From NCBI GenBank assembly GCA_004524435.1, contig SDNO01000006.1, forward strand, positions 1-32,795: 32,795 bases of DNA. Direction: 5' to 3'. Below the pieces are notes generated by a model. It was not told the DNA's origin, ran no database searches, and was given only the letters and a program-made list of their open reading frames with translations. Position 1 is the first letter of the stretch. Each line of letters starts with the position of its first letter. Shown piece after piece: positions 11,931-30,018 of this stretch. A program made the position numbers and the translations under genes. The stretch is from Candidatus Thorarchaeota archaeon. GTDB taxonomy: Archaea > Asgardarchaeota > Thorarchaeia > Thorarchaeales > Thorarchaeaceae.

Positions 11931-12001
11931 AGCAATGACAAGTCATATTTGTCGATACGGCATTGAATAGACGATTTCCGAAAGTAAAGGAGAAGGAAGA
12001 G

Positions 12002-12661
12002 ATGGGTACATTCTCAAGAATATTCGGATTAGGCGACAAGGAACTGCAAGAGAAGGCGGAGAAGCTTCTGCTCAGCCTGAGCAAATCCCTCCAGAAGGCA
12101 TGTGCCAAGCTACACGCTCAGGTTGAATGCTGGGCAGCAGGGAATGAGGAGAAAGTCAAGGAGATTGCAGAGGAAATCATTGAGGTGGAGCGTGAGGCAG
12201 ATGAAACCAAGGACGCTCTAATCAATAGCATCTTCGCAAAGCACGCATATCTTCCTCAACAGACAGAGGAACGCTATGATCTCATCACCAAAATGGATCA
12301 CATCATTGATGCCGCAGAGGAAGCAGCTCGGATTATCCTAGCAGGTTTTGAGAGAGAGCCTCCAAAAGAGATTGTCAAGATATCCGAAAAGTGCTGGTAC
12401 TGCACAGACCTGCTCCAAGACGCAATAAAGTACATCTTCTCAGACTTTGAGAAATCAATCAAATACTCACGAAAGATTGAGGATGTTAGAGAAGAGGCAC
12501 GAAATGAGAAGTTCGAGCTCATTGAGGAGATATGCGAGGGTGAGTACAAGCCAATCGATGCAATGTACTATCATCTCATTGCTACGGAGATTCTTGAGGT
12601 AGCAATTAGGGCAGAAGTCACCGCAGACCTTATTCGGGCAATAGCTGTTCGATACATCTAG
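12002..12661 (+). CDS. DUF47/PhoU-like phosphate transport accessory protein
   Basis: This 219-residue, almost entirely helical protein has many heptad-like charged stretches (LQEKAEKLLLSLSKSLQKA, EEIIEVEREADETKDALIN), the PhoU-like bundle of the DUF47 family (TIGR00153). The E-x-x-x-D-x-x-K signature EVEREADETKD, a metal-binding motif of PhoU proteins, is present near residue 65. GGAGAAGGAAGAG directly before the ATG at 12002 decides the start; the frame itself is open from 11963. It is followed after 17 bases by the PiT transporter, a common pair in which DUF47 proteins regulate or assist low-affinity phosphate uptake. Confidence 0.88.
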   Translation: MGTFSRIFGLGDKELQEKAEKLLLSLSKSLQKACAKLHAQVECWAAGNEEKVKEIAEEIIEVEREADETKDALINSIFAKHAYLPQQTEERYDLITKMDHIIDAAEEAARIILAGFEREPPKEIVKISEKCWYCTDLLQDAIKYIFSDFEKSIKYSRKIEDVREEARNEKFELIEEICEGEYKPIDAMYYHLIATEILEVAIRAEVTADLIRAIAVRYI

Positions 12662-12678
12662 CTGGGGGAGAAACTCGG

Positions 12679-13707
12679 GTGGAGGTTCTTCTTCTAGCTT
12701 TGGTACTCGTCATCGGTTTTCTCGTCGCCTTTGCGGTGGGAAGCAATGATGAAACCATGAGCCCTGCAGTCGGTGCTAGAATCTTCACAGTCAACACTGC
12801 CGTTGCCATTGGAGGAATCATCAACATAATTGGCGCCGTGACACTGGGGACCAATGTATCAGAACGCGTGGGTTCTGATATTGCGGGAGGGAGTCTGCTC
12901 ACACTGACGATGGTCTTCGCAGTTCTTCTTGCAATGGCGATATGGCTTCTGGTCGCATCATTCACTAAGGGGCTGCCGATTAGCACAACTCAATGCGTGG
13001 TAGGATCTGTCATTGGCGTAGTTGCCCTAGCACCCTTGTTGGGCATCGCCAGTGGCGGCAGCTATGCAGTGGACTGGATGGTGGTCGGCCAGATATTTAT
13101 CGGATGGATCGTGTCACCAGCGCTTGGCTTCCTTATTAGTGGAATAGTCTATGCCGGGGTCAGAAGACTTCAGTCACGAGCGAAAGGACTCGCCTCCAGA
13201 GAGAGGCAGGAGAGAATCGCAGCCTATGGCTTGACCGTCTTCCTAATCATAACATCATTGAGTAGAGGGGGCAATGATGTGGCCAATGCTGTGGCACCAC
13301 TCATCGCATTGCCAGATTTCCAAGGCTTCGCGTATCTTGGGCCGTTCATCATCCCAATGACGGTGATTCCCCTCCTTCTGGGAGGAATTGGGATGGCTCT
13401 AGGACTAGCAGTCATCGGGAGACGAGTGATCAAAACTCTAGCGACAGAGGTTGTCACTCTCTCACCCACGTCTGCACTCTCAGCAAGCATGGCCACAAGT
13501 ATTGTGATGTTTGTGGGGACCTTACTGGGTTTCCCCTTGAGTGGGACTCATGTGCTTGTTGCAGCGCTTGTCGCTGTTGGGTGGGTATCGAGAGCACCAG
13601 TCAAGAAGCGACAAATCAGAGATATTCTCATCTCATGGATTGTGACTGTACCTATCTCAGCTGGTCTAGCTGTAGGATTGTTTGCGTTGATTCAACCTTT
13701 CTTCTAG
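12679..13707 (+). CDS. pit: PiT-family inorganic phosphate transporter
   Basis: This 342-residue membrane protein has about ten hydrophobic segments and imports phosphate (probably as a metal-phosphate complex) driven by protons or sodium. The two inverted PiT signatures are visible: GSNDETMSPAVG at residues 21-32 and GGNDVANAVAP near 197-207. Each supplies an asparagine-aspartate pair to the substrate site. The start is a GTG with GGGGGAGA ten bases upstream. It follows the DUF47 gene in the same transcript. Its TAG stop overlaps the stop of the convergent protease gene in a shared CTAG. Confidence 0.93.
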   Translation: MEVLLLALVLVIGFLVAFAVGSNDETMSPAVGARIFTVNTAVAIGGIINIIGAVTLGTNVSERVGSDIAGGSLLTLTMVFAVLLAMAIWLLVASFTKGLPISTTQCVVGSVIGVVALAPLLGIASGGSYAVDWMVVGQIFIGWIVSPALGFLISGIVYAGVRRLQSRAKGLASRERQERIAAYGLTVFLIITSLSRGGNDVANAVAPLIALPDFQGFAYLGPFIIPMTVIPLLLGGIGMALGLAVIGRRVIKTLATEVVTLSPTSALSASMATSIVMFVGTLLGFPLSGTHVLVAALVAVGWVSRAPVKKRQIRDILISWIVTVPISAGLAVGLFALIQPFF

Positions 13708-15525: not shown

Positions 15526-17013
15526 TTAGAAGAAAGCCGACAAGAAGTGCATCACTACGTCTGGATAGATGCCAAACAGCAAGGAAACCAATGCAAGAAT
15601 GAAGAGTGGCAGAGTCATGCTCTTTGGTGCTTCCTTCACATCTTCCAGTTCTGATGATAGAGGACCAAAGAATATGCGCTTCACCGGCCAGAAGGTATAG
15701 GCTGCCGTCAGGAACGTTGCGAATATAGCGATGACCGGTATCGCGAATTGTAGAGCCCCTTGGAGTGTTCCGCCCTGAAATATCCCAACAAACATGACCC
15801 ACTCGGCCTGAAGCCCGCTCAGAGGAGGAATGGCAGAGAGAATCATGGAACCAAGGATAGCAAGGGCCGCCGTGAAGGGCATCTTCTTGGCCAGACCGCC
15901 CATCTTGTTCATATCCCTAGATCCGGTCTGCATCATGAGAACGCCTGCTATGCAGAGGAGGATGCTCTTACCCAGGATGTGGCTCACGAAATAGAAGACT
16001 CCCCCTGCAAGCCCCATTGCCGTGAGACTCCCTATGCCCACCAAGGAATAGGCAGTCTGGCTGATTGTGGAACATGCATAGAGGCGCTTGACGTCGTCTT
16101 GGGCCAGTGTGAGAAGGCCACCATAGACCATTGTAATCAGACCAAGAACCATGATCGGTAGTCCGAACACTTGGAAGTCAGCAGCAAGAGGCACTGCGAG
16201 TAGACGAACAATCACATAGCTGCCCAATCCCGCAATGGTTGCAATGATTGCGGCGATGTGTGCAAGGTGCTCACCGTGAGCGTAGGGCAACCATACATGG
16301 AGACCGAATGCTGCCATCTTGATGAGCCATCCGACTAAAATCAACAGGCAGACCCAGAAGGCGATGGGCTGCCCCGAGATTGTCGATAGGGCATTTATGC
16401 TGAACGAGCCACCTGTGGCTGTTGAGGCCAAGATTGCACCTATTAGAAACAGACCAGCTGCAACCTGATTCCAGATGAAGTACATCGTTGCAACTCGATG
16501 CCGCTCTCTGTATCCGAAGAAGTCGAGAAGGAAGTAGGATGGAATCAGTACAAGCTCAATGAACAGGTACATAGCTATTAGGTTCGATGAGAGCGCAACA
16601 CCGACGAGGCCAATGGGGAAGAGCAGGTAGAGTGCATGATAGAGTCCATGCATGGATTTGTTCTCTTCGCCATAGAGCTCGTCTATTCGATGCTTCATAT
16701 AGTGTATAGAATAGATGGAGGCTGCCGTACAGATGAGGTTCATTATTAGTGCGACAGGCAGACTCAGATTATCAGCAATGAATCCGAATTCGAGGGTAAA
16801 ACTGACTGCACTCCATGTGTAAGTTTCACTGATTGGAAGTGCCGTTGTCCAGATAGTTGATCCTGCAATGAGTAGAAGAGATGTCGTGTATATCAGGATG
16901 GCAGAAGCAATCCAACCCACGTATTTTCCAATCCTTTTACCCATTAGAGCGACAAGAGGCGCAGCAACTGCAGGCACAAGAATCGTCTGGAGTAGAACAA
17001 ACGGTATTTCCAT
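15526..17013 (-). CDS. nuoM: Complex-I-like hydrogenase, antiporter subunit M (NuoM/MrpD-type)
   Basis: This 495-residue membrane subunit is one of the three proton- or sodium-pumping antiporter-like modules of the complex, last in the left operon and one base after nuoL. About fourteen hydrophobic segments fit the family. The TM5 glutamate is present (FIELVLIPSY, E153), and so is the TM7 lysine (WLIKMAAFGLHVWLP, K232). The discontinuous helix after it reads HGEHLAHIAAI where most homologues have E-A-P-T/S-P-x-S. The broken-helix prolines are thus missing, and an extra histidine cluster is present instead. The C-terminal channel helix has PPLSGLQAEW with a glutamate in the usual position. Assignment to M rather than N rests on E-L-V-L-I-P, which is typical for M. 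Confidence 0.9.
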   Translation of the reverse strand: MEIPFVLLQTILVPAVAAPLVALMGKRIGKYVGWIASAILIYTTSLLLIAGSTIWTTALPISETYTWSAVSFTLEFGFIADNLSLPVALIMNLICTAASIYSIHYMKHRIDELYGEENKSMHGLYHALYLLFPIGLVGVALSSNLIAMYLFIELVLIPSYFLLDFFGYRERHRVATMYFIWNQVAAGLFLIGAILASTATGGSFSINALSTISGQPIAFWVCLLILVGWLIKMAAFGLHVWLPYAHGEHLAHIAAIIATIAGLGSYVIVRLLAVPLAADFQVFGLPIMVLGLITMVYGGLLTLAQDDVKRLYACSTISQTAYSLVGIGSLTAMGLAGGVFYFVSHILGKSILLCIAGVLMMQTGSRDMNKMGGLAKKMPFTAALAILGSMILSAIPPLSGLQAEWVMFVGIFQGGTLQGALQFAIPVIAIFATFLTAAYTFWPVKRIFFGPLSSELEDVKEAPKSMTLPLFILALVSLLFGIYPDVVMHFLSAFF

Positions 17014-17014
17014 G

Positions 17015-19054
17015 CTACGGCACCACCAGGAATACGATTGAAATTAATGCAAGTAGTATAAACAGCAGTATGTATTGGATATTGATGGACAGAAGACCTG
17101 TCTGAAGCCTCCTGAGCCCCTTGCTCAATCCTGAGAATAACCTGGGAATTCCCTCATTGAACAGACAATCGAGAGGGTCTTCGATATACTTCTGGACCAG
17201 ATGGCGATATCTTATGGTTCCATCAACGAATACCCTGTTTATGGAGGAATTGATGTACCAGCGTTTTCTCAAGAACATCTGGATTCGCTGAAGGATGCCG
17301 CTACCCTCGACCAGAGCCTCTGATGAACTCGCATGACTAACATAGAAGCGATAGGCAGGCAAGGCACCGATGACAATCATAACCAATGAGAGAAGGGGTA
17401 AGAGCAAAGTCAAAGGCACTGTAGACTGAGCTGCTGGCGCGATGCTACCGGCTGTGCCGCTATGTACCTCAAACCCAAGGAAATCGACGAAGTATGCCTC
17501 GAATATGTGCTCAATCTGCTCACCAAACCAAGGCCCAATCGCACCAACTGCCACCGAAAGCACGGCCAGTATTCCGTAGGGAACAAGCATGATGGGACTG
17601 GCCTCCTTGTCCTCTTGATTTTCTTCGTCATTCTTGTGAAAGACCTTCCCCATGAAGCGTACCGAGTAGAATGCCGTGAAGGCAACAGTCACCAGAGCCA
17701 AGGCGAAGAGAATGAATTGGCCGGTCTCAAAGGAGAGACTCAAGATCTCCTCCTTGCTCCAGAATCCTGACAGAGGGGGAATCCCCATGAGGGACATAGT
17801 CGCCACCCACATGAATATCCACGTATAGCGCATGCTGCGTCTTGAGAGGTCCATTTCGGACATGTAGATGGATCCAGTTGTATGAATGATGACCCCCGCG
17901 CACAGGAATAGTGCAGCTTTGAAGATACCGTGACTGATGAGATGGAAGATCCCTGCAGTCAAACCAAGCGTCATGGAATGAGAGGTGAATCCTGCTAGAC
18001 CGAGACCTAGGATCATATAGCCTATCTGACTCATGGTCGAATAGGCGAGGACCTTCTTGAGCTCAACAGCTACCATAGCCTGGGTACCGGTAAGGAACGC
18101 CGTGATGGCTCCAACAGCTGCCGTGACTGCGAAGAAGGTGAATGCCTCCGGATAGTTTGCAATCCAAGTTGCATAGAAGAAGACAGGAATCAGCCGAGCA
18201 ATGAAATAGACACCCGCCTTGACCATTGTGGCCGCATGAATCAGGGCAGAAACCGGCGTTGGACCCGCCATGGCTTCTGGGAGCCACTCGTGTAGCGGAA
18301 ACTGAGCTGACTTTGCGATGGGGCCACCAAGCAAGAGAACAGAGAGCAGGGTGAGAGCACCGGGGTCAGTCGCGAGAGCTGCCAGCCACACATCGGCTGT
18401 CTGATACAGCTCAAGGAAACTCAAAGTCCCAGAGTAGGTATAAAGAAAGACTATACCTCCAAGCAAGGATACATCGCCAAAGGTCGTCACAAGGAGTGCC
18501 TTCAGACCGGCTCGCGATGGGGTCCGGAAAGGGAAGGGGTCGGGTCCGCCCAGCCAGTGTTCCTCCTCGTCAGAATAATAATGCCCAATGAGAGCGTAGC
18601 TACAGATACCGACCATCTTCCATCCGATAAACATGAGGATGAGATTATCGGCAAGAACGAGGAGGAGCATGCTGGTAATGAAAATCGACATGAAGAACCA
18701 GTATCGATCCTGACCCGGCTCATGCTCAACATACTTCACCGAATAGATCATGATGGCTAGGGAGAGGAAGGCAACTATGTTGGCAAGGATGATGCTGAGT
18801 GGGTCAATGAGCATGCCGATACTTATGGAGCCCCCACCGGGTAGAGAGATCCAGAAGGCGGGACTGTTGAATGACTCTGCCCTGACAATCTCAGGCAACA
18901 TCAATAGTGCCATTAGGAAACCGAGGAAGGTGAAGAAGACAACGGCGTAGTCTCGAATCGGCCTCCCGATTCGAATCAAGAGAATCGCCATTGCCGCGCC
19001 CAGCAACGGGAAAATCCAACACAACCAAGCAAGAAGATGGATGTCTATTAGCAT
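17015..19054 (-). CDS. nuoL: Complex-I-like hydrogenase, antiporter subunit L (NuoL)
   Basis: This 679-residue distal antiporter subunit aligns almost without gaps to NuoL through LADNLILMFIGW, AKSAQFPLHEWLPEAMAGPTPVSALIHAATMV, VLAYSTMSQIGYM and PPLSGFWSKEE. A long C-terminal part ends in LRRLQTGLLSINIQYILLF. This is the end of the lateral helix and the last TM found in true NuoL. The TM7 lysine (K248) is present. In TM5 the invariant glutamate of GWEGVG (E144 in E. coli) is replaced by lysine: GWKMVG, K146, AAG codon at 18617-18619 complement. A hydrophilic insert (YSDEEEHWLGGPDPFPF) follows TM5, as in other NuoL proteins. It sits between the N-like and M genes, 13 bases after the former. 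Confidence 0.93.
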   Translation of the reverse strand: MLIDIHLLAWLCWIFPLLGAAMAILLIRIGRPIRDYAVVFFTFLGFLMALLMLPEIVRAESFNSPAFWISLPGGGSISIGMLIDPLSIILANIVAFLSLAIMIYSVKYVEHEPGQDRYWFFMSIFITSMLLLVLADNLILMFIGWKMVGICSYALIGHYYSDEEEHWLGGPDPFPFRTPSRAGLKALLVTTFGDVSLLGGIVFLYTYSGTLSFLELYQTADVWLAALATDPGALTLLSVLLLGGPIAKSAQFPLHEWLPEAMAGPTPVSALIHAATMVKAGVYFIARLIPVFFYATWIANYPEAFTFFAVTAAVGAITAFLTGTQAMVAVELKKVLAYSTMSQIGYMILGLGLAGFTSHSMTLGLTAGIFHLISHGIFKAALFLCAGVIIHTTGSIYMSEMDLSRRSMRYTWIFMWVATMSLMGIPPLSGFWSKEEILSLSFETGQFILFALALVTVAFTAFYSVRFMGKVFHKNDEENQEDKEASPIMLVPYGILAVLSVAVGAIGPWFGEQIEHIFEAYFVDFLGFEVHSGTAGSIAPAAQSTVPLTLLLPLLSLVMIVIGALPAYRFYVSHASSSEALVEGSGILQRIQMFLRKRWYINSSINRVFVDGTIRYRHLVQKYIEDPLDCLFNEGIPRLFSGLSKGLRRLQTGLLSINIQYILLFILLALISIVFLVVP

Positions 19055-19067
19055 TTGTTCTCATTCC

Positions 19068-20522
19068 TCAGGTCATTGATAGAATTGCGAGTGCTGCTCG
19101 TTCTGCGATATTGAAGACCAAGTCGGGCCAGATTCCAAACGTGATAATCAGGATTGCCAGAATCCATATTGGGAACCACATCGAGACAGGTGCCTCCCGT
19201 AAATTCTCGCTGGGTTCAGACTCAGTTTCTATCATCACCCTTACGATACGTAGATAGTAGCCTGCAGAAATTGCACTGTTCAAGATGATTGCAATGCCAA
19301 CCCAGGCCAAGTTGACATCAGCCACAGATACAAAGAGAGTCAGTTTGCTGACAAAGCCGTTCAGGCCCGGCAGTCCAATGAGAGCAAAGATTGCTATGGA
19401 GAAGGCCACAGCGATCTTGGGCATTCTACGAGCAAGACCAGACATATCTGCTAGATTGCGACTCCCCAGTCTGTAGATGATTGCCCCTGCACAGAGAAAA
19501 GCGGTTCCTTTCATCAGTGCATGATTCAAGATATGAAGAATCGTGCCTGTGAGACCAACTACTGTGCCTGCTGCCAATCCAGCGAGCATATAGCCGATGT
19601 GTCCGATGCTTGAGTAGGCAAGCATGCGTTTCAGGTCATCTTGGACAAGTGCAGTCATATTCCCGAGCGTCATGGTGATGACGGCCAAGACAGCAAACAC
19701 CATCGACCAGTAGGTCTGCAGAGAGATGAGGGCAGTAAAGAGAACGCGGACCATTGCAAGGAGTCCGGTTTCAATCACTATGCCTGAAAGCATAGCGGAT
19801 ATGGGAGAAGGCGCAGCCGAGTGTGCATCAGGCAGCCATGTATGTAGGGGTACAATTGCAGCCTTGACTCCAAAGCCTGTGAAGATGAACAAGAGAGCAA
19901 TGTAGAGCCATGGCCCCGGTGTGGCGTGACCAAGAGCTGTAGCAAGCCCGCCAAAATTCAGTGTACCGGTCATCCCATACAAGAGGGATATTCCAAACAA
20001 CAGAGTCGCAGAGCCGGCAGAGCTCATCAGCAGGTACTTTATGCCTGCCTCAACAGGTTCTGGCTCTTCATTTTTGAATGCAACCAGTAGATAGGAGGTT
20101 AGACACATCATCTCCCAAAATACGAAGAGTGTGAAGAGGTCGGCCGCCGTGACAACTCCGACCATCCCGCCAATCATGCCAATGAGAAGTGCGTAGTATA
20201 ATGAACTACCACTCTCACTTCTCATGTATTGTATGGAGAAGATGCTTGCTGCGATTCCCAGGCCGATCTGGATGACCATTGCAAAGGACCCAAAGATGTC
20301 AAGGTCAAAGTAGGCATTGAAGAGACCGCTAGTGGGAGTGGGGGGTACAACTCCGCCCAGAGTCTGAAGTAGCAGCTGGAATGCTGTGAAGGCTGAGAGG
20401 AGAATCCCCAGGGTAGCATAGACGCCAGAAAGGCGCGGTAGGTCTACCTTCTGGGCAAGCCAACCGATTAGTGGTGTTGTAATGGCGAAGAGAAATAGCA
20501 AATCAAGTGGCAAGGTCAACAT
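19068..20522 (-). CDS. nuoN: Complex-I-like hydrogenase, antiporter subunit N (NuoN/MrpD-like)
   Basis: This 484-residue antiporter-like membrane subunit is the third channel of the membrane arm. Key residues are intact: TM5 glutamate in LFVFWEMMCLTSY (E137), TM7 lysine in GFGVKAAIVPLHTWLPDAH (K220), the broken helix SAAPSPISAMLSG, and the TM12 lysine in GLNGFVSKL. In sequence style it is as close to MrpD/MbhH as to NuoN, so the letter N rests mainly on its position after K and the absence of L or M signatures. The ATG start is preceded by TTAGGAGGAG ten bases upstream, one of the strongest ribosome binding sites in the cluster. Confidence 0.88.
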   Translation of the reverse strand: MLTLPLDLLFLFAITTPLIGWLAQKVDLPRLSGVYATLGILLSAFTAFQLLLQTLGGVVPPTPTSGLFNAYFDLDIFGSFAMVIQIGLGIAASIFSIQYMRSESGSSLYYALLIGMIGGMVGVVTAADLFTLFVFWEMMCLTSYLLVAFKNEEPEPVEAGIKYLLMSSAGSATLLFGISLLYGMTGTLNFGGLATALGHATPGPWLYIALLFIFTGFGVKAAIVPLHTWLPDAHSAAPSPISAMLSGIVIETGLLAMVRVLFTALISLQTYWSMVFAVLAVITMTLGNMTALVQDDLKRMLAYSSIGHIGYMLAGLAAGTVVGLTGTILHILNHALMKGTAFLCAGAIIYRLGSRNLADMSGLARRMPKIAVAFSIAIFALIGLPGLNGFVSKLTLFVSVADVNLAWVGIAIILNSAISAGYYLRIVRVMIETESEPSENLREAPVSMWFPIWILAILIITFGIWPDLVFNIAERAALAILSMT

Positions 20523-20537
20523 TATTACTAGCTCCTC

Positions 20538-20852
20538 CTAACCTCTCAGACGACGAAGTTCTCGTATGTCAAGTGTTCCATAGTGCCTGTACACAAAGAT
20601 GATGATAGTAAATGCTGCAGCACTAATACATCCCGCCAATGTGATGGACATCATCACGATTGAATGGGCAAGAGGATCAATGAATCCCTCCGTCCAGTTG
20701 GCCGACAGGACGATGAAATTGAGATTGGCCGCGTTTATCATGATCTCGATTCCAAGAACAAGACGGACCACGTTTCGCTTGGTTGCTAGGCAATACATAC
20801 CGACAATATAGAGCCCCATGGTCAATATCAGATAGTAGGAGAGGGGTATCAT
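20538..20852 (-). CDS. nuoK: Complex-I-like hydrogenase, subunit K (NuoK/MrpC/MbhG-type)
   Basis: This 104-residue subunit has three transmembrane helices and connects the H/J region to the antiporter modules. E36 in LVLGIEIMINAANLNF is the conserved TM2 glutamate of the proton path. The second glutamate of NuoK (E72 in E. coli) is absent: the corresponding helix reads MMSITLAGCISAAAF. Together with the DPLAHSIVMMSIT start of that helix, this looks like MrpC and MbhG rather than NuoK. Its start overlaps the stop of the upstream J2 gene by four bases (ATGA), so the two are translationally coupled. Confidence 0.9.
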   Translation of the reverse strand: MIPLSYYLILTMGLYIVGMYCLATKRNVVRLVLGIEIMINAANLNFIVLSANWTEGFIDPLAHSIVMMSITLAGCISAAAFTIIIFVYRHYGTLDIRELRRLRG

Positions 20853-21136
20853 AGTGTACGTTCATCTCTCTGTGAAGCTATATCCCTGAGCAACGCAAGG
20901 CTTCCAACAGCTGTCAGAAACAGAACAAAGGACTGAGCAAGCAACTCTATGCCTCGATAGTCCCACATGAAAGCACTTGCCTCATCTCCCGTCGATTCGT
21001 CTATCTCAATCAGGTCTTGGTCCGATATCGCAAAGTCAAAGGCAGGAAACGTGTTATTCACAACGAAGACAGAGAATGTGAAGATTGCCAGAATTGAAAA
21101 CACAAGGCCGGTGACCTGTATTGGATCTATGCGCAT
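20849..21136 (-). CDS. Complex-I-like hydrogenase, subunit J2 (MbhE/MrpA-C-terminal-like half of NuoJ)
   Basis: This small membrane protein of about 95 residues has two hydrophobic helices joined by an acidic loop (SDQDLIEIDESTGDE). After the loop, FMWDYRGIELLAQSFVLFLTAVGSLALL matches the MbhE and MrpA C-terminal signature (D-Y/F-R-x-x-D/E-T/L-x-x-E/Q-x-x-V-L-F). This position corresponds to the last two helices of NuoJ. The ATG at 21136 is preferred because GGAG is five bases upstream and the J1 stop ends one base before it; a GTG at 21148 is an alternative. A split J is known from Fpo of methanogens and from Mbh. Confidence 0.82.
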   Translation of the reverse strand: MRIDPIQVTGLVFSILAIFTFSVFVVNNTFPAFDFAISDQDLIEIDESTGDEASAFMWDYRGIELLAQSFVLFLTAVGSLALLRDIASQRDERTL

Positions 21137-21137
21137 A

Positions 21138-21389
21138 TCACTCCACACTTCCGGTCCTGGTTGTCAGTGTAATTGTGGCAATCAGTAGTGCAATAACTGC
21201 CCCTGCGTAGATCAGCAGCTGGAAAATCGCAACGTAGACGGCGCCAGAAAGCCAGAAGACTCCTCCCACGGCTATACACATGCCGCAGAAGGAAAGAATT
21301 GCGTATAGAATGTCTCTGGTTTCAACGGCCATTACCGCAAAGACAAACACTAGCACCATCGATATGAGCTGCATTATCTCAAGAATCAT
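21138..21389 (-). CDS. nuoJ: Complex-I-like hydrogenase, subunit J1 (N-terminal half of NuoJ)
   Basis: This protein of about 83 residues has three transmembrane helices. AVETRDILYAILSF and AIFQLLIYAGAVIALL match the first three helices of NuoJ. The YAGAV motif marks TM3, whose pi-bulge changes drive the coupling cycle in complex I. The protein ends shortly after TM3, and the remaining two helices are supplied by J2. The frame is also open from a TTG at 21416; the ATG at 21389 gives the normal family N-terminus and leaves room for a short leader. It is the first gene of the leftward operon. Confidence 0.85.
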   Translation of the reverse strand: MILEIMQLISMVLVFVFAVMAVETRDILYAILSFCGMCIAVGGVFWLSGAVYVAIFQLLIYAGAVIALLIATITLTTRTGSVE

Positions 21390-21427
21390 GGGAAATTCCA
21401 CAGGGCACTCTGTCAATTCCGCAATAG

Positions 21428-21448
21428 CCTTAAAGGCCGATTAAAAGG
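21428..21448. promoter_or_regulatory. Shared divergent promoter core of the hydrogenase cluster
   Basis: CCTTAAAGGCCGATTAAAAGG is nearly its own reverse complement. ATTAAAA lies about 26 bases before the nuoA ATG on the plus strand, and TTTTAAT on the minus strand lies about 25 bases before the J1 start region, which is TATA spacing. Both operons, twelve genes, would be fired from this one site, with nuoA leaderless or nearly so. Confidence 0.5.
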
Positions 21449-21470
21449 TTTCCATCAAGAAGGTCGGTAA

Positions 21471-21806
21471 ATGTCTCTTGAAGCCTCCTATCTGCTACCT
21501 CTGGCGTTTGGTTTGGCCTTGGGTGTCATACTAGTGATCTATTGGATTGGTGGACGAATCACCTTCAAGGGCGCCGTAGACGAAGAGGAGAGTCACATTC
21601 CATACGCGTGTGGTGAAGAGTTCGCTACTGGTGAAGTGAGAGTTCACTTGGAGAGATTCTTTGTGTTCGCAGTCTATTTACTGATCTTCGATGTCCTGAT
21701 ATTCATACTTGCAACAGCCTTCACGATAACAGGCATACTGCCTGTTCTCTATTCGGTCGTGATCCTGACATCAGCTGTTGTATTCATGATGTTCAAGGGG
21801 GTCTAG
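21471..21806 (+). CDS. nuoA: Complex-I-like hydrogenase, subunit A (NuoA)
   Basis: This 111-residue membrane subunit has three transmembrane helices. The loop after TM1 contains PYACGEE (C47, E49, E50), the conserved cysteine-glutamate loop that in complex I lies over the quinone site and moves during turnover. TM2 has FFVFAVYLLIFDVLIF with the buried aspartate. NuoA is a hallmark of complex I and Fpo and is missing from small Ech-type hydrogenases. Its presence beside a [NiFe] catalytic subunit is therefore notable. It is the first gene of the rightward operon. AAGAAGGT before the ATG could serve as a ribosome binding site. Confidence 0.9.
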   Translation: MSLEASYLLPLAFGLALGVILVIYWIGGRITFKGAVDEEESHIPYACGEEFATGEVRVHLERFFVFAVYLLIFDVLIFILATAFTITGILPVLYSVVILTSAVVFMMFKGV

Positions 21807-21810
21807 TCGC

Positions 21811-22251
21811 ATGGGAATTCTGAAGTGGTCTCGTTCCAAATCCCCCTGGTTGATCCATTTCAACACCGGGGGCTGTAACGGGTGTGATATTGAGCTGCTA
21901 GCTGCACTCACACCGAAGTATGATGTAGAGCGTTTTGGCATAGTCTTGGAAGGAAGTCCCAGACATGCAGACGTCATGGCGGTCACGGGTCCCGTAACCC
22001 GTCAGGTAAGGAAGCGTCTTCGACGGATATATGACCAGATGCCTGAACCCAAGTTCGTGGTAGCTATAGGATCTTGTGCTCTGACAGGCGCGCCTTTCGG
22101 AGACTGCTATAATGTCCTTGGAGGCACAGAGAAGCAGATACCAGTAGACGTCTACGTTCCCGGTTGTCCCCCACGACCTGAGGCAATCATTGATGGAATT
22201 GCCAAGCTCCTTGGCAAGATGGAGAGTAGCGATGATGATGACGGAGAATGA
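21811..22251 (+). CDS. Group 4 [NiFe]-hydrogenase small subunit / NuoB homologue
   Basis: This 146-residue subunit holds the [4Fe-4S] cluster next to the active site. The four ligands are C22 and C25 (TGGCNGCDIELL), C89 (IGSCALTG) and C119 (VPGCPPRPE). In complex I the first pair is an adjacent CC. The C-x-x-C seen here is the form in EchC, MbhJ and HycG, so the protein is a hydrogenase-type small subunit. It is shorter than uptake hydrogenase small subunits, as in group 4. The acidic tail (MESSDDDDGE) is unusual. It begins four bases after nuoA and overlaps the C gene. Confidence 0.92.
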   Translation: MGILKWSRSKSPWLIHFNTGGCNGCDIELLAALTPKYDVERFGIVLEGSPRHADVMAVTGPVTRQVRKRLRRIYDQMPEPKFVVAIGSCALTGAPFGDCYNVLGGTEKQIPVDVYVPGCPPRPEAIIDGIAKLLGKMESSDDDDGE

Positions 22252-22714
22252 GATTGTTGAGTCTCTGAAGGAGTCCTTCGGAGACAAGATTCTGGAGATA
22301 GAATCACCCCGTGAGAGAAGGATTTTCTCGCGCATAAAGCAAGAAGACCTGAAGAAAGTCGTAGCATTCATACGTGACGATCTACAGATTACACACCTTT
22401 CCACGATAACGGCCTCGGACCTCGGTGATGAGATTGAATTGATCTACCACTTTGTGTATGAGGGTGCCATTGTGCTCTCGCTAGTCACCGAAGTTCCAAT
22501 GGATGAGCCTAAGATTCCCACCATCGTTGATATCATCCCTGGTTCACAATTGTACGAGAGAGAAGTATACGAGATGATGGGCGTTGTATTCGAAGGGCAT
22601 CCGAATCTTGAGCCGCTGCTACTGCCAGAGGACTGGCCGAAGGGAGTATACCCGCTAAGAAAGGAGTATGACCTAGAGAAACTGAGGGAGTTGAACAAAG
22701 ATGACACCGCGTAA
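22232..22714 (+). CDS. nuoC: Complex-I-like hydrogenase, subunit C (NuoC/HycE N-domain-like)
   Basis: This peripheral-arm subunit of about 160 residues binds the catalytic subunit from the outside and has no cofactor. The C-terminal half has the 30-kDa subunit signature PGSQLYEREVYEMMGVVFEGHPNLEPLLLPEDWPKGVYPLRKEY. Three consecutive ATG codons (22232, 22235, 22238) could start it; GGAGAG at 22221 fits the first two best. It overlaps the end of the B gene by up to 20 bases and overlaps the D gene by 14, which points to coupled translation. Confidence 0.9.
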   Translation: MMMTENEIVESLKESFGDKILEIESPRERRIFSRIKQEDLKKVVAFIRDDLQITHLSTITASDLGDEIELIYHFVYEGAIVLSLVTEVPMDEPKIPTIVDIIPGSQLYEREVYEMMGVVFEGHPNLEPLLLPEDWPKGVYPLRKEYDLEKLRELNKDDTA

Positions 22715-23888
22715 GGACACAGTAGGAAGAAAGACCACAAGTATCCCTGTGGGCCCACAACACCCTGCGCTGAAAGAGCCTGAGAGTTTCACCTTTGAGA
22801 TTGATGGAGAAACGATTGTTGACGTCATACCGCGACTTGGCTATGTCCACCGAGGAATCGAGAAAGCAATGGAATCAAGGACATATATCCAGAATCTCTA
22901 CCTGGCCGAGAGAATCTGTGGAATATGCTCTCATTCTCACACAACTTGCTATGCCCAAGGTGTCGAGGAGCTCTTAGATGTCAAGATACCAGACAGGGCT
23001 AACTTCATTCGGGTGATAATAGCCGAACTTGAGAGAATCCACAGTCACATGCTATGGTTAGGCGTGGCAGCCCACGAGATTGGATTTGACACCCTGTTCA
23101 TGCATTCTTGGTTAGACAGAGAACTAGTCATGGACCTACTGGAACTCATCTCAGGGAATCGTGTGAACTACGCCATGAACACCATTGGTGGTGTGCGCAG
23201 AAACATTAGCGATGATGGAGGGCAGAAGGTCAAGGACTCCTTGGCTGATGTCGAGGAACGAATGAAGCACTATGTTGAAGTCATAAAGACAGACCAGTCG
23301 ATTCGCCAGAGAACCAAGAACATAGGGCCCTTGAACTGTACACCCGCAGCAGACCTATGCGCTGCTGGACCTACACTCCGTGCCAGCGGCATAGCCCGCG
23401 ATGTGAGAAAGGACGATCCTTACGCAGCCTATGGTGAGATTCCATTCGATGTGATCTCCTACGATGGGTGCGATCTTTTCAGTCGTACTCTGGTCAGATG
23501 TGAGGAAATACTCGAGGCCATCAAGATTACAGACTACGCCATTGACAACCTGCCTGAGGGTGCAATCCGGGTGAGAGCCGCTCGGAAAGTGCCAGAGGGT
23601 CGGGTGGTTTCCCGGCTTGAAGCGCCTCGAGGAGAACTCATCCATTACTGCAAATCGAATGGGACTGACACGCCTGAACGCTACAAGGTCAGGGCTCCAA
23701 CCCTTGCCAATGTTCTAGCACTAGGCAACATGCTTATTGGTGGCAATGTTGCGGACATTCCCATCGTCCTTGCCGGAATTGATCCGTGTTTCTCATGCAT
23801 GGATCGGATGGCATTCGTAGACACCAAGTCCGATAAGAGGTGGACTTGGACACAAGAGGACCTCCAGAGGTACGCACTAAAATGCTAG
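22701..23888 (+). CDS. Group 4 [NiFe]-hydrogenase catalytic large subunit / NuoD homologue
   Basis: This 395-residue catalytic subunit would bind the NiFe(CN)2CO centre. The N-terminal ligand motif is RICGICSHSH (C73, C76, H80), the R-x-C-G-x-C-x-x-x-H form. The C-terminal motif is DPCFSCMDR (C363, C366). Complex I NuoD has lost both cysteine pairs. HRGIEK (E54) near the N-terminus and IGPLNCTPA in the middle are shared with group 4 members. After R369 come 26 residues starting MAFVD and ending RYALKC. This resembles the HycE tail removed after maturation by the HycI protease at the same Arg-Met bond. Expected role: H2 formation with reduced ferredoxin via subunit I, or H2 oxidation. Maturation genes are not in the window. 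Confidence 0.93.
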   Translation: MTPRKDTVGRKTTSIPVGPQHPALKEPESFTFEIDGETIVDVIPRLGYVHRGIEKAMESRTYIQNLYLAERICGICSHSHTTCYAQGVEELLDVKIPDRANFIRVIIAELERIHSHMLWLGVAAHEIGFDTLFMHSWLDRELVMDLLELISGNRVNYAMNTIGGVRRNISDDGGQKVKDSLADVEERMKHYVEVIKTDQSIRQRTKNIGPLNCTPAADLCAAGPTLRASGIARDVRKDDPYAAYGEIPFDVISYDGCDLFSRTLVRCEEILEAIKITDYAIDNLPEGAIRVRAARKVPEGRVVSRLEAPRGELIHYCKSNGTDTPERYKVRAPTLANVLALGNMLIGGNVADIPIVLAGIDPCFSCMDRMAFVDTKSDKRWTWTQEDLQRYALKC

Positions 23889-24847
23889 ACACGGTCGTCA
23901 TTCCACTCGTGATGTTTCTCATATTCCCTGGTGTGGCTTTTCTGCTGGCCATGGCCTTTTTCTTAGAGTGGATAGACAGAAAGACTGTAGCCAGAATCCA
24001 GAGGAGATATGGACCCTTACATACTGGTCCTTCTGGCATTCTTCAGCCCTTTGCAGACTTTTTGAAGTTGCTTCAGAAAGAGGACATCATACCTACGGGG
24101 GTTGACAAGAAAGTGTTCATTTTGGCACCAATCCTCATTTCTGCACTTCCCCTCACTGCCCTGTTCCTTATTCCCTTTGCAGGCCCGAGTGCTCTTGTCT
24201 GGTTTGAGGGGGACCTGTTTCTCATCATGTTTATTTTCACACTGATTGTTCTCGTGGTCTTCCTTGCAGGCTATTGTACGACCTCTCGATTCAGTGTGAT
24301 TGGAAGTTCGCGAGCGGCCCTCCAGATGCTTGGTTATGAAATTCCCATGGGCCTTGCTATGATAGGGCCCGCCCTTCTTGCCGGCAGCCTTTCGATTAGC
24401 GGAATCGGGCAGTGGCAGATGGACAATGGAATCTGGACTGTTCTGCTACAGCCGCTCGGCTTTGCAATACTTGTCACATGCATGCTAGCAGAACTAGAGT
24501 TTGTGCCGTTTGATATTCCGGAAGCCGAGACAGAGATTGTGGGAGGGTGGCGCACAGAATACGGCGGTAGGAAACTCGCTCTACTGAAGCTCGGGCACGA
24601 TTTGGAGCTGGTTCTTGCATCAGCCCTGATCACGGCCCTCTATCTAGGAGGAGCGCAACAGATTTGGATAATCCCTTCAATATTTGTGTTCTTGGCGAAG
24701 ATGCTGCTAGTCACGCTTTTATTCTCCCTCCTAAGAGCAGTGTTCGCACGGATGAGCATTGCACAGATGCTTTCTGGAATGTGGAAGTATATGGTCCCTC
24801 TCGCCATAATTCAGATTCTGCTGATACAACTGGGGATTGGAGGTTGA
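23882..24847 (+). CDS. nuoH: Complex-I-like hydrogenase, subunit H (NuoH/EchB/MbhM)
   Basis: This subunit of about 321 residues has eight or nine transmembrane helices and anchors the catalytic arm to the membrane, where it forms the first proton path. Signatures are FLEWIDRKTVARIQRRYGP, GILQPFADFLKLLQKED, LGYEIPMGLAMIGP and the strongly conserved AELEFVPFDIPEAETEIVGGW loop, rich in acidic residues. The ATG at 23882 starts inside the D gene (ATGCTAG overlap); the longer open frame from 23840 would only extend into it. The order D-H-I is the standard one. Confidence 0.93.
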   Translation: MLDTVVIPLVMFLIFPGVAFLLAMAFFLEWIDRKTVARIQRRYGPLHTGPSGILQPFADFLKLLQKEDIIPTGVDKKVFILAPILISALPLTALFLIPFAGPSALVWFEGDLFLIMFIFTLIVLVVFLAGYCTTSRFSVIGSSRAALQMLGYEIPMGLAMIGPALLAGSLSISGIGQWQMDNGIWTVLLQPLGFAILVTCMLAELEFVPFDIPEAETEIVGGWRTEYGGRKLALLKLGHDLELVLASALITALYLGGAQQIWIIPSIFVFLAKMLLVTLLFSLLRAVFARMSIAQMLSGMWKYMVPLAIIQILLIQLGIGG

Positions 24848-24848
24848 G

Positions 24849-25202
24849 ATGGTGAAGATGATTCGAAACGCAATTAGCTTCCTATTTCAAGGACCAGCAA
24901 CCAGAAAGTACCCCTACGAGAAATCAGAGGTCCCAGAAGGATTCAGGGGACCACCAACTTGGGACATAGAAAGGTGTACGGGATGTGGGATCTGTGCTCG
25001 TGTCTGCCCAGTTGATGCAATAGAAGTCGAGAGAACCGATGAGAAGATAGTTGTCACATATCACCTAGATCGTTGTACATTCTGCTCACAATGTGAGGAG
25101 AGCTGTCCCCGAGATGTCATCAGAATGTCCAAGGAATTCGAACTGGCAGACTTTGACAGAGAGAAGATGACCACAGAATATGTGCAGGACCGAACTGACT
25201 AG
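24849..25202 (+). CDS. nuoI: Complex-I-like hydrogenase, ferredoxin-type subunit I (NuoI/EchF/MbhN)
   Basis: This 117-residue electron-transfer subunit has two [4Fe-4S] clusters: CTGCGICARVCP (C43, C46, C49, C53) and CTFCSQCEESCP (C76, C79, C82, C86). The amphipathic N-terminus (MVKMIRNAISFLFQGP) lies on the membrane in relatives. Electrons probably enter from soluble ferredoxin, because no NuoE, F or G or FpoF homologue is encoded beside it. The ATG at 24849 is chosen because GGAGGT is five bases upstream, and the H stop ends one base before it. It is the last gene of the rightward operon. Confidence 0.93.
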   Translation: MVKMIRNAISFLFQGPATRKYPYEKSEVPEGFRGPPTWDIERCTGCGICARVCPVDAIEVERTDEKIVVTYHLDRCTFCSQCEESCPRDVIRMSKEFELADFDREKMTTEYVQDRTD

Positions 25203-28324: not shown

Positions 28325-28758
28325 CAGGGGATCGTTGTCGTTCAGCTGTGTTCACCAAAGATGTTGTTAACTGTGGCATATCATAAGTATTCCGCGATGC
28401 TCGGAAGCATAACATAGACATATCCAATCCGTGAAAGGACGTGCTCACAGAGATGCTAGTTACTCTACTCGGCTCACATGAACAGATGTTCGGGGAGAAT
28501 TGAGAGTATTGGAACACATGTTCTAAGAAACGCCATAGCATCACTTTGTTGCAAGCAAATATACCAAATCAATAATGATACAAAAATTCAAGAATGTTGC
28601 GAAAAGGCGATAAAATGCCCATCTTTGTGGGGATGCGATGCGGGAGGAAGTAACCAGCTGAAGAAGCCGTAGAATTATTAAGTGAGTCATCCATTCTTTC
28701 ATCACTGGTTGACCAGAGTACGCGGGCCACACGCACGCCACCAGACGGAGGTACCTTG
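28325..28758. other. Intergenic region between divergent PAS and LRR genes
   Basis: About 430 bases have no supported gene. The short open frames here have no ribosome binding site or family signature, and one on the minus strand runs into the LRR gene. The region is A/T-rich near 28555-28600. It carries the twin inverted repeats at 28480-28523, a TATA-like ATTATTAAG near 28674 for the LRR gene and a possible ACTTATG box near 28384 on the minus strand for the PAS gene. Confidence 0.5.
28480..28523. promoter_or_regulatory. Twin GAACA-N2-TGTTC inverted repeats (possible operator)
   Basis: GAACAGATGTTC (28480-28491) and GAACACATGTTC (28512-28523) are 12-bp inverted repeats that differ in one base and start 32 bp apart, close to three turns of DNA. 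They would place two dimers on the same face. They lie in the non-coding region between the PAS and LRR genes. The half-site resembles the GAAC-N4-GTTC box of bacterial LexA, but no such regulator is expected in archaea. Confidence 0.4.
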
Positions 28759-29424
28759 GTGGTCGAAGCAACACTGCTTTGTAGATTCCGAGACGATAGT
28801 GGGGAGGAGGTTCATCTTTCTGAGGATACTCATGAACTGGACTTGTCACATCGAAGAATTTCTGAGATAGATCTTCGCCCCCTTGCCAAGTGTGAGAATC
28901 TCGAGGTTCTTGATCTGTCACACAATCTTATCAAGGAGATAGATCTGTGGCCTCTGATGAAATGCAGACATCTCAGGCAACTTCGACTACGCAACAATCA
29001 ACTCAAACGAGTTGACGTTACACCGCTACTGGACTGTCCACAGCTGAAGACAATCGATATCGATGACACGGTAGAGATCGTGGCAAACTATGATATGCGT
29101 ACAAGAAGGATGAGGGGATTATCTCTTGAGGAGTTGCGAAGCAAGCATCCATTGAGATGGCGATTCGACTCCGAAACGATGGATCCCTTGATTGAGGTCG
29201 AGAGAATCCGAAACAAGCTCTTCACCGAACTGAACGAGATCTACTGTAGCCCTGATAATCGACAAGTGATTCATGCAGAACTCATGTGTAGACTCCAGTC
29301 TGCCTTGGAAGATGCTCTTCGACGAGAGATGGCCAATGCAGAGAAGACTGAAAACTACAAGAGACTATATGTTCTTCAGAGAGGCCTAGAATACATAAGG
29401 CAAAACACCCCTGTTGCCAGATAG
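28759..29424 (+). CDS. Leucine-rich-repeat protein with helical C-terminal domain
   Basis: This soluble protein of about 221 residues has three to four LRR units in the N-terminal half, each of the form I-D-L-x-P-L-x-x-C-x-x-L-x-x-L-x-L-x-x-N-x-I/L. They start at HELDLSHRRISEIDLRPL and end near TIDIDD. The C-terminal half (about 115-221) is charged and helical and has no known domain. The LRR face suggests protein binding. The GTG at 28759 is six bases after GGAGGT; the TTG at 28756 is also possible. A paralogue follows 93 bases downstream. Such short LRR proteins are numerous in Asgard archaea. Confidence 0.82.
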   Translation: MVEATLLCRFRDDSGEEVHLSEDTHELDLSHRRISEIDLRPLAKCENLEVLDLSHNLIKEIDLWPLMKCRHLRQLRLRNNQLKRVDVTPLLDCPQLKTIDIDDTVEIVANYDMRTRRMRGLSLEELRSKHPLRWRFDSETMDPLIEVERIRNKLFTELNEIYCSPDNRQVIHAELMCRLQSALEDALRREMANAEKTENYKRLYVLQRGLEYIRQNTPVAR

Positions 29425-29517: not shown

Positions 29518-30018
29518 TTGGACCAGATAATCCTACGCTACGAAACTGCGACTGGACTGGAGAAGATGACCCGCGTTAGGACAGATGAGTCACATATCAA
29601 CTTGGAAGTTCGCGATATCAAGACCGTCGACTTGCTGCCCCTTATCTGGTGCACAAACCTAGAGGGACTGAGCCTTAGTTACAACTCTCTTGAACAAGTG
29701 GACCTTTCGCCTCTCAACAGGTGCCCGAAACTACAGGGGCTTTGGCTCAGTCACAATCAACTGCAGTCTATCGATTTCTCACCGCTTTCCAAGTGTTCAC
29801 AACTTCAGGAGATCTGCCTTCAGCATAACGACATCAAGAAAATGGATGTTTCAGGCCTGTTCAACTGTCACAGCCTTGAAGTCCTGAGGTTTGATGATGG
29901 CGTGACCCTGACCGCTGATGTCTTTCTCAAGTCAATTGGGAACTGGCCAGATCTGCTTGTGGAGTACTACGATAAGATACTCTGGAGGTCCAACGTAGAT
30001 TGGGGAAAGCCCGAGTAG
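29518..30018 (+). CDS. Leucine-rich-repeat protein, paralogue of upstream gene
   Basis: This 166-residue protein carries four or five LRR units (DIKTVDLLPLIWCTNLEGL, SLEQVDLSPLNRCPKLQGL, QLQSIDFSPLSKCSQLQEI, DIKKMDVSGLFNCHSLEVL) with the same P-L-x-x-C pattern as the preceding gene, then a short capping segment ending in WRSNVDWGKPE. It lacks the helical C-terminal domain of its neighbour. The start is a TTG with GGAGG ten bases upstream. The two genes probably arose by tandem duplication and may be co-transcribed. A protein-binding role is likely; the partner is unknown. Confidence 0.82.
   Translation: MDQIILRYETATGLEKMTRVRTDESHINLEVRDIKTVDLLPLIWCTNLEGLSLSYNSLEQVDLSPLNRCPKLQGLWLSHNQLQSIDFSPLSKCSQLQEICLQHNDIKKMDVSGLFNCHSLEVLRFDDGVTLTADVFLKSIGNWPDLLVEYYDKILWRSNVDWGKPE

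Follow-up and report, generated by a model that had tools for sequence, protein, structure and literature searches.

How complex I came to be built out of parts of hydrogenases and antiporters has long been asked, and the connector is the part of such complexes that turns redox work into ion pumping. The stretch of DNA analysed here (the window, 32,795 nucleotides of contig SDNO01000006.1 from a Thorarchaeota archaeon) encodes a putative connector in three small overlapping genes, J1, J2 and K, and raises the question of whether a connector that blends features of complex I with features of the Mbh and Mrp systems was put together from pieces or inherited as a whole. A preliminary description of the locus had read it as a mosaic of a NuoJ-like J1, an MbhE-like J2 and an MrpC-like K. 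Archaeal hydrogenases of this kind split features that are joined in complex I, with Glu36 of K present without Glu72 and the tyrosine helix of J present without the C-terminal half of NuoJ, and connectors in which features are split in this way are natural variants with which to test which part of the connector is essential.

The three genes lie on the minus strand within 20538-21416 and adjoin three antiporter-like genes, all divergent from the plus-strand genes A, B, C, D, H and I. J1 (21138..21416), the first half of a split NuoJ-like subunit, has 92 aa from a TTG start, or 83 aa from the in-frame ATG at 21389, which was the limit taken in the preliminary description. J2 (20849..21148; 99 aa, GTG start) is the second half, and K (20538..20852; 104 aa) is a subunit of the NuoK/MbhG family with an MbhG-like C-terminal tail and without the second glutamate of NuoK. 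Downstream on the same strand are an antiporter-like subunit of 484 aa (19068..20522), whose gene is next to K and which is closest to E. coli NuoN, with NuoM nearly as close, and retains the TM5 Glu, TM7 Lys and TM12 Lys; the NuoL-type subunit L (17015..19054; 679 aa), in which the TM5 Glu is replaced by Lys146; and a NuoM-type subunit (15526..17013; 495 aa) that retains the TM5 Glu, TM7 Lys and TM12 Glu. The plus strand encodes the NuoA-like A (21471..21806; 111 aa), which carries the Asp equivalent to E. coli NuoA D79, the NuoB-like FeS subunit B (21811..22251; 146 aa), the NuoC-like C (22190..22714; 174 aa when read from its earliest start codon, although translation may begin further in), the hydrogenase large subunit D (22701..23888), which contains both [NiFe] motifs (CGICSHSH and DPCFSCMDR), the NuoH-like H (23840..24847), which carries the Glu equivalent to E. 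coli NuoH E157, and the ferredoxin-type subunit I (24837..25202) with 4Fe-4S domains.

The antiporter-like proteins and A, B, C, D, H, J1 and K match Pfam families, and Pfam identifies I as a protein with 4Fe-4S domains; the membership of J2 was recognised through its relatives and not by a Pfam family. All eleven subunit types (A, B, C, D, H, I, J, K, L, M and N) are found in this one cluster, with J as two genes. Together with the two [NiFe] motifs of D, of which L1 occurs in 89 and L2 in 72 of 90 D-like frames (E. coli included), this complement marks the cluster as encoding a predicted complex I-like [NiFe] hydrogenase of the Hfo kind, with 11 subunits and a divided J. No FpoFO or NuoEFG electron-input module was noticed among the ORFs of the window. 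The possibility that the contig is a contaminant was rejected: an alanyl-tRNA synthetase-like ORF at 10143-11930 (named by eye) is 66-75% identical to its counterparts in 32 of 36 other genomes of the same family, the remainder giving three weak matches and one without a match, and in two genomes (G020 and G061) this ORF lies about 9 kb from hydrogenase genes. Elsewhere in the window, two adjoining plus-strand ORFs near the hydrogenase region (28756-29424 and 29518-30018) have leucine-rich-repeat-like sequence, and a PhoU-like ORF is followed by a phosphate-permease-like ORF (11963-13707, plus strand), all as judged by eye.

The overlapping genes and their motifs were confirmed. J1 contains the sequence FQLLIYAGAV, with the NuoJ-type IYAGAV helix and its Tyr codon at 21207-21209. 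As a single sequence, it scores 39.8 bits with the Pfam family Oxidored_q3 and 21.3 with MbhD, and of 19 aligned Asgard J1 sequences searched at E<=0.01 all match Oxidored_q3 and 14 match MbhD. When a profile of these 19 rows was run against the PDB, P. furiosus MbhD came top with 56.8 bits, the best NuoJ scoring 44.0. J2 carries DYRGIELLAQSFVLF, the DYRG signature of the preliminary description, and includes the stretch 'FMWDYRGIELLAQSFVLFLTAVGSLALLRD'; residues W62, R65 (20954-20956), E68 (20945-20947) and Q72 (20933-20935) make up a W..R..D/E...Q motif. Searches with the single J2 sequence gave no Pfam family at E<=10, one weak NCBIfam match to an MrpB model (12.8 bits, E=0.059) and MbhE as the best PDB match (E=0.007), and Pfam MbhE was matched by one of 19 aligned Asgard J2 sequences, which is not that of the window. 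The 19-row J2 profile retrieved MbsE (33.8 bits), MbhE (29.6), weakly MrpA (14.9 bits, E=0.22) and one unrelated chain from the PDB, and no NuoJ at E<=10, so that the C-terminal half of NuoJ (TM4-5) is not favoured. After two rounds the profile gave E-values of 2e-14 to 7e-23 for Mbh-type J2 and none better than 3e-4 for complex I NuoJ, although it had absorbed Mbh-type rows before these values were obtained. A search with the predicted J2 structure (pLDDT 73.2) returned nine chains with Z up to 6.2, no relative among them, and excludes nothing.

Comparison of aligned groups places these motifs more precisely. Complex I rows typically read Q..VY.GA in the first half of J and have a C-terminal half without the Arg and Asp columns; Mbh-type rows read AEAAVGAG or AQAGVGAC in J1 and DYRGFDTLGEATVLF in J2; bacterial hydrogenase rows read FELSVCAGLI and LW..R.LDL.GQ; archaeal hydrogenase rows read FQLLVYAGAV and LW.YRGID.L.Q. 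Column counts were taken in the subsample used for the trees, after rows with poor C-halves had been dropped from them and from the column scores given below. Asp or Glu occupies the acid column of J2 in 26/26 archaeal, 18/18 bacterial hydrogenase and 14/14 Mbh-type rows, in 12/14 rows from further Thermoproteota and 1/3 euryarchaeal hydrogenase rows, and in 0/15 complex I rows, all 15 of which have other residues in both the R and the D/E columns. Four columns further on, Gln is present in 21/26 archaeal, 17/18 bacterial, 9/14 further Thermoproteota and 1/3 euryarchaeal rows, in none of the 14 Mbh-type rows (all Glu) and in none of the 15 complex I rows. From these counts, W..R..D...Q reads as a mark of these hydrogenases that is in part common to Mbh/Mrp. 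The window's own pair is E68 and Q72, in place of the DTLGE-type carboxylate pair of MbhE and of the C-terminal half of MrpA. The Tyr of J1 is present in 20/20 complex I, 17/26 archaeal and 11/14 further Thermoproteota rows and absent from the 18 bacterial, 14 Mbh-type and three euryarchaeal hydrogenase rows, and the TM3 Glu of MbhD, shared by 8/14 Mbh-type rows, is Gln in the window.

The order J1-J2-K is kept among relatives, two Asgard loci (L045 and L050) have J1 and J2 fused into a single reading frame, and in most bacterial loci the J1 and J2 profiles both land on one ORF; on these grounds the pair together is predicted to form one J subunit. Seven loci from other genera of the same family (L035, L042, L049, L052, L145, L149 and L153) have a different connector, with VFSGA and a J1 without the Tyr, and branch apart as a clade of their own in the trees of all three proteins.

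K contains the sequence 'LGIEIMINAANLNF', which includes E36 (codon 20745-20747), and 'DPLAHSIVMMSITLAGCISAAAF...YRHYGTLDIRELRRLRG', the MbhG-like helix and tail. Aligned with E. coli NuoK, it has Glu in the Glu36 column and Ile in the Glu72 column, and so lacks the two-glutamate arrangement of NuoK. Nor does it have the MbhG-type pattern of a missing Glu36 and a later acid: among 17 Mbh-type K rows, a class set by hand, Glu36 is present in two and an acid three residues after the Glu36 column in 16, where the window has Ile. The single K sequence scores 65.3 bits with the FpoK, 65.0 with the NuoK and 55.0 with the MrpC model of NCBIfam, each under its own curated cut-off, and against the PDB 54.2 with NdhE, 52.9 with MbsG, 52.2 with MbhG and 44.5 with E. 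coli NuoK. For the 19-row profile the PDB order is MbhG (80.3), NdhE (78.8) and MbsG (73.0), and of 19 aligned Asgard K sequences all match NuoK models of NCBIfam and 18 the archaeal MrpC model PRK08388. K is the sole PF00420 match in the assembly at E<=0.001.

Structural superposition did not separate the alternatives either. The predicted K structure (pLDDT 84.8) matches MrpC (Z 13.6, rmsd 2.0, 97 residues aligned) and cyanobacterial NdhE (13.2, 2.4, 99) as a tie, followed by E. coli NuoK (12.4, 2.6, 99), MbsG (11.5, 2.3, 98) and MbhG (11.2, 2.7, 98); because complex I and Mbh/Mrp chains are both among the top matches, the modelled fold cannot choose between the two sides, and the J2 model, as noted, matched no relative.

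How widespread is this blend of features? When 148 genomes of the phylum were searched with J2, 26 of them, counting that of the window, had a match at E<=0.01, and in each of the other 25 loci J1, J2 and K open reading frames follow in order, as they also do in Bathyarchaeota, Thaumarchaeota and Heimdallarchaeota loci. Further loci were gathered by a D-alignment scan of named loci, from which the best 80 of at least 582 were kept (Bathyarchaeota, Asgard lineages, Omnitrophota, Planctomycetes, Chloroflexi and others), and complex I and Mbh-type comparison sets were added by further searches. To gather rows, and for nothing else, the phylum was also searched for the MrpC family (E<=0.001 in 88 of 148 genomes, none over the cut-off). 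The K comparison holds 185 different rows, of which three are PDB fragments. All 25 Asgard K rows found by J2 similarity have Glu36 and lack Glu72. Among the D-linked rows, which come from the best 80 of at least 582 loci, Glu36 is found in 10 of 12 archaeal rows (Ser in the other two) and 45 of 57 bacterial rows (Gln in the other 12), and no Glu occurs in the E72 column of the 12 archaeal rows or, with the Asgard and bacterial rows counted, in any of 94. All 32 complex I rows have Glu there, although that class was drawn up mainly by this column, and the independent evidence for it comes from the J trees. Most bacterial K rows (L061-L130) have, by eye, a Glu or Asp three residues before the NuoK E72 column. 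Being recurrent across the phylum and beyond it, the connector states are, on this sequence evidence, more than chance, and the blend is the ordinary state of a published hydrogenase family and not peculiar to this organism.

The retained residues bear on how the connector might work. Protons have been described as moving in E. coli complex I from NuoH E157 by way of NuoA D79 to NuoK E36, with NuoJ Y59 in the modelled region (PMC13324432). The window retains all four, in the Glu157 column of H, the Asp79 column of A, the Tyr of J1 and the Glu36 column of K. Across the other loci of the hydrogenase set, the E157 column is Glu in 84/84, and the D79 column is Asp in 6/10 and Glu in 4/10 Asgard loci and Asp in 9/58, Glu in 3/58 and His in 46/58 others. 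The predominance of His at NuoA D79 in relatives outside the Asgard set and the shifted acid in bacterial K (L061-L130) look like a different wiring of the same channel. In MrpA, the carboxylates E706, D792 and E796 are essential for activity and are reported not to be conserved in complex I (PMC7419157); by our own sequence-based placement, the residue of the window's J2 that corresponds to D792 is acidic and the one that corresponds to E796 is Gln. The third carboxylate, E706 of MrpA, was paired with NuoJ Y59 by Steiner and Sazanov (PMC7419157). An equation of the Mbh TM3 Glu with the NuoJ Tyr was set aside; in our alignment this Glu lies four columns before the Tyr. The assembly, which is 87% complete, contains no match to MnhB (MrpB; PF04039). 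With Glu and Gln at the essential Mrp carboxylate pair, and neither an MrpB nor a PF00420 protein other than K found in this 87% complete assembly, the predicted module is most likely a complex I-type proton connector with no Mrp-type Na+ path.

We infer the functions of the proteins, their neighbours in the complex, the ion and the direction as follows. Electrons would pass between ferredoxin and H2 via I, B and D, and the redox change would drive a relay of protonation from H Glu157 through A Asp79 and J1 Tyr to K Glu36. Without the second NuoK glutamate, Glu36 alone would hand the charge signal to the helix-5 Glu of the 484-aa subunit, from which it would continue to the other two antiporter-like subunits. 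The complex might run towards H2 production or towards H2-driven ferredoxin reduction.

The distal pump, L, has an unusual residue. NuoL E144 has been called fully conserved (PMC4938563); the window has Lys146 at this position (codon 18617-18619, minus strand). Close L proteins have Glu in 102 others and Lys in L028, L029 and L057, and a wider set of 199 rows, in which the query and the window are both counted, contains 189 Glu, six Lys (the query, the window, the same three loci and the remote L190), one Ala and three gaps. Lys is found in 16 and Glu in four of the best 20 Thermoproteota loci, and among 12 Asgard loci Lys is found in three (the window, G020 and G061) and Glu in nine, which gives 18 other genomes with the Lys (16 Thermoproteota and two Asgard). 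At position 158 the Lys rows carry H or Y where Glu rows mostly carry F, and at 191 they carry T or S where Glu rows mostly carry R. Lys146 looks like a lineage trait.

To follow descent, trees were built from 101 K rows (a subsample of the 185), 97 J1 rows and 91 J2 rows, with 83 to 107 columns kept; four rows classed as 'other' (L185, L187, L189 and L190) were left out, and the J1 and J2 numbers are those of the candidate rows that yielded a usable J1 (97) and a usable J2 (91). The trees are unrooted and have many open forks, and the K bootstrap had not settled; within these limits, complex I rows form one clade that excludes the window in every tree (100/95 for K, 100/97 for J1 and 96/87 for J2), as do Mbh-type rows (100/95, 100/100 and 98/92). 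Archaeal hydrogenase rows form a grade and no clade (7 changes for K, 9 for J1 and 8 for J2). Each tree gives the window the sister L028, a locus of the same family, with the Bathyarchaeota locus L054 next and L057 near, and the window's J1, J2 and K are nearer to Bathyarchaeota and Thaumarchaeota forms than to most of the sampled Asgard forms. For core rows chosen after the trees had been seen, AU tests rejected K held with Mbh (p-AU 0.006) and not K held with complex I (p=0.258), rejected J1 held with either complex I (0.049) or Mbh (0.013), and did not reject J2 held with Mbh (0.181), while J2 with complex I was barely rejected (0.046). That the tests pull different ways could be a faint trace of different histories. 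For K, the AU results and the slight lean of the curated models towards FpoK/NuoK speak against calling the protein MrpC-like as a whole.

Column scores for a seven-row core including the window, in BLOSUM units per column with positive values on the complex I side and negative values on the Mbh side, locate the blend. TM1-2 of K score +0.70 (95% 0.08 to 1.32), TM3 and the tail of K -0.91 (95% -1.47 to -0.33) and TM5 of J2 -0.84 (95% -1.59 to -0.15); the scores of J1 TM1-2, J1 TM3 and J2 TM4 are not decisive. These scores back the reading that the connector mixes complex I and Mbh/Mrp features, and the similarity switches side within K and not at a gene border. The NuoJ-like character ascribed to J1 holds for the motif in one helix but finds no decisive column score in TM1-2 or even in TM3 itself.

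We consider it probable that J1, J2 and K make up a connector of the Hfo kind, with the proton mechanism outlined above, that has its blend by inheritance and was not assembled from pieces. Archaeal hydrogenase rows would then stand between complex I and Mbh/Mrp and have retained different shared features of either side, and such separately retained inherited features explain the blend better than gene swapping does, as far as the short alignments go. That the window has one and the same sister whichever of the three proteins is used argues against swapping, and with it against a mosaic in the sense of pieces brought together.

A true mosaic, in which recombination brought together a complex I/Fpo source, for J1 and the first half of K, and an Mbh/Mrp operon, for J2 and the second half, is in our judgement unlikely. 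It would account for the change of side inside K, for the lean of J2 TM5 towards Mbh and for the different partners that the AU tests prefer for K and J2. Nearest-relative identity also varies among the genes of the cluster: the best-segment identity of K, N, L and M is highest to L028, whereas that of A, B, D, H, J1 and J2 is higher to L054 (59 vs 55% for J1 and 56 vs 46% for J2), and D of the window is 65-69% identical to Bathyarchaeota D among the best 80 of at least 582 loci vs 49% to same-family Asgard D. L028 and L029 have C and D apart from the remaining hydrogenase genes. This division of identity between the genes of 15526-25202, in comparison with L028 and L053-L055, suggests exchange within the cluster, or of the cluster, between lineages, and it takes a little from our confidence in descent over swapping. 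A swap of the kind proposed would, however, need a break point in the middle of K, the pattern is common to Asgard, Bathyarchaeota and Thaumarchaeota rows, neither part has a donor clade as its nearest relative, and the sister and the next relative of the window are identical in all three trees.

We find it similarly improbable that this is a complex I (Fpo/Nuo) connector that drifted, being NuoJ and NuoK by descent with the second glutamate lost. Such a history would agree with the top scores of K to FpoK and NuoK models, with the AU test that does not reject core K and complex I as one clade, and with the complex I type of the J1 TM3 motif and of the acidic path through H, A and K, but complex I is a supported clade without the window for K, J1 and J2 alike, J2 lacks the pattern of the NuoJ C-half while its Arg and Asp/Glu are common to hydrogenases and Mbh, and the [NiFe] motifs of D are intact. 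That this is an Mbh/Mrp connector which transports Na+ and resembles complex I by chance at a few residues is highly improbable: the J2 profile, which retrieves MbsE, MbhE and MrpA and no NuoJ, and the MbhG-like TM3 and tail of K would fit it, but the Glu of DTLGE and the Glu of MbhD TM3 are both Gln in the window, Ile stands where 16/17 Mbh-type K have an acid, MnhB was not found in the assembly, and K held with Mbh was rejected.

A bolder reading, which we hold to be rather doubtful, would take the archaeal hydrogenase connector as a stage that has survived from the passage between the Mrp/Mbh design and that of complex I. If this were true, the input side (A, J1 TM3 and K TM2) would already be the complex I path and the output side (K TM3 and J2 TM5) of antiporter type, the second NuoK glutamate would be a later addition of complex I, and the distal pump L of the window's sub-lineage, with Lys for the helix-5 Glu, would run without the usual Glu-Lys switch and so make a pump with a different stoichiometry.

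Among the closest known systems is Hfo, an Fpo-like 11-subunit hydrogenase of Bathyarchaeia with no Na+ module, for which a closer link to respiratory complexes than that of Mbh has been claimed and, for one lineage, H2-driven ferredoxin reduction proposed (Loh et al., 2021; PMC7886697). The window shares its 11 subunit types and D [NiFe] motifs, and Bathyarchaeota loci are among the nearest D relatives (within the best 80 of at least 582) and the close relatives of J1, J2 and K. It differs in belonging to an Asgard genome and in having the J-K-L-M-N genes opposite to A-I, whereas Hfo has the Fpo and Nuo gene organisation (PMC7886697). The main text of that paper mentions neither NuoJ, FpoJ, 'subunit J' nor glutamate, and says of subgroup 4g hydrogenases that they are not characterised biochemically. 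An Asgard group 4 complex I-like [NiFe] hydrogenase has also been published (Valentin-Alvarado et al., 2024; PMC11291895); it comes from the same phylum and is of the same kind, with complex I-like membrane subunits and an L-like subunit, but the models are of Freyarchaeia and Atabeyarchaeia.

The MBH and MBS of P. furiosus (PDB 6cfw and 6u8y; PMC7684303) resemble the window in the DYRG of J2, in TM3 and the tail of K and in having J in two chains, the second of which is, in MBS, the start of a longer chain. They differ in the Glu of DTLGE and of MbhD/MbsD TM3, where the window has Gln, and in MbhG and MbsG, which lack Glu36 and have an acid three residues later, whereas K of the window has Glu36; MBH also carries MbhABCF. 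Complex I and Fpo share with the window the J1 YAGAV helix, Glu36 of K, Asp79 of A and Glu157 of H, but not its lack of the second NuoK glutamate or a J2 unlike the NuoJ C-half. A split J is itself on record, fpoJ N and fpoJ C being annotated in Methanomassiliicoccales (PMC4153887), and so are the homologies of MbhD and MbhE with the MrpA C-terminus and NuoJ, and of MbhG with MrpC and NuoK (PMC7419157). A residue-level comparison of J2 and K for this hydrogenase family was not found in the passages of the literature searched. The complex and its status as a link are already in print, and what the present analysis adds is the residue-level detail of the connector and the survey of its relatives.
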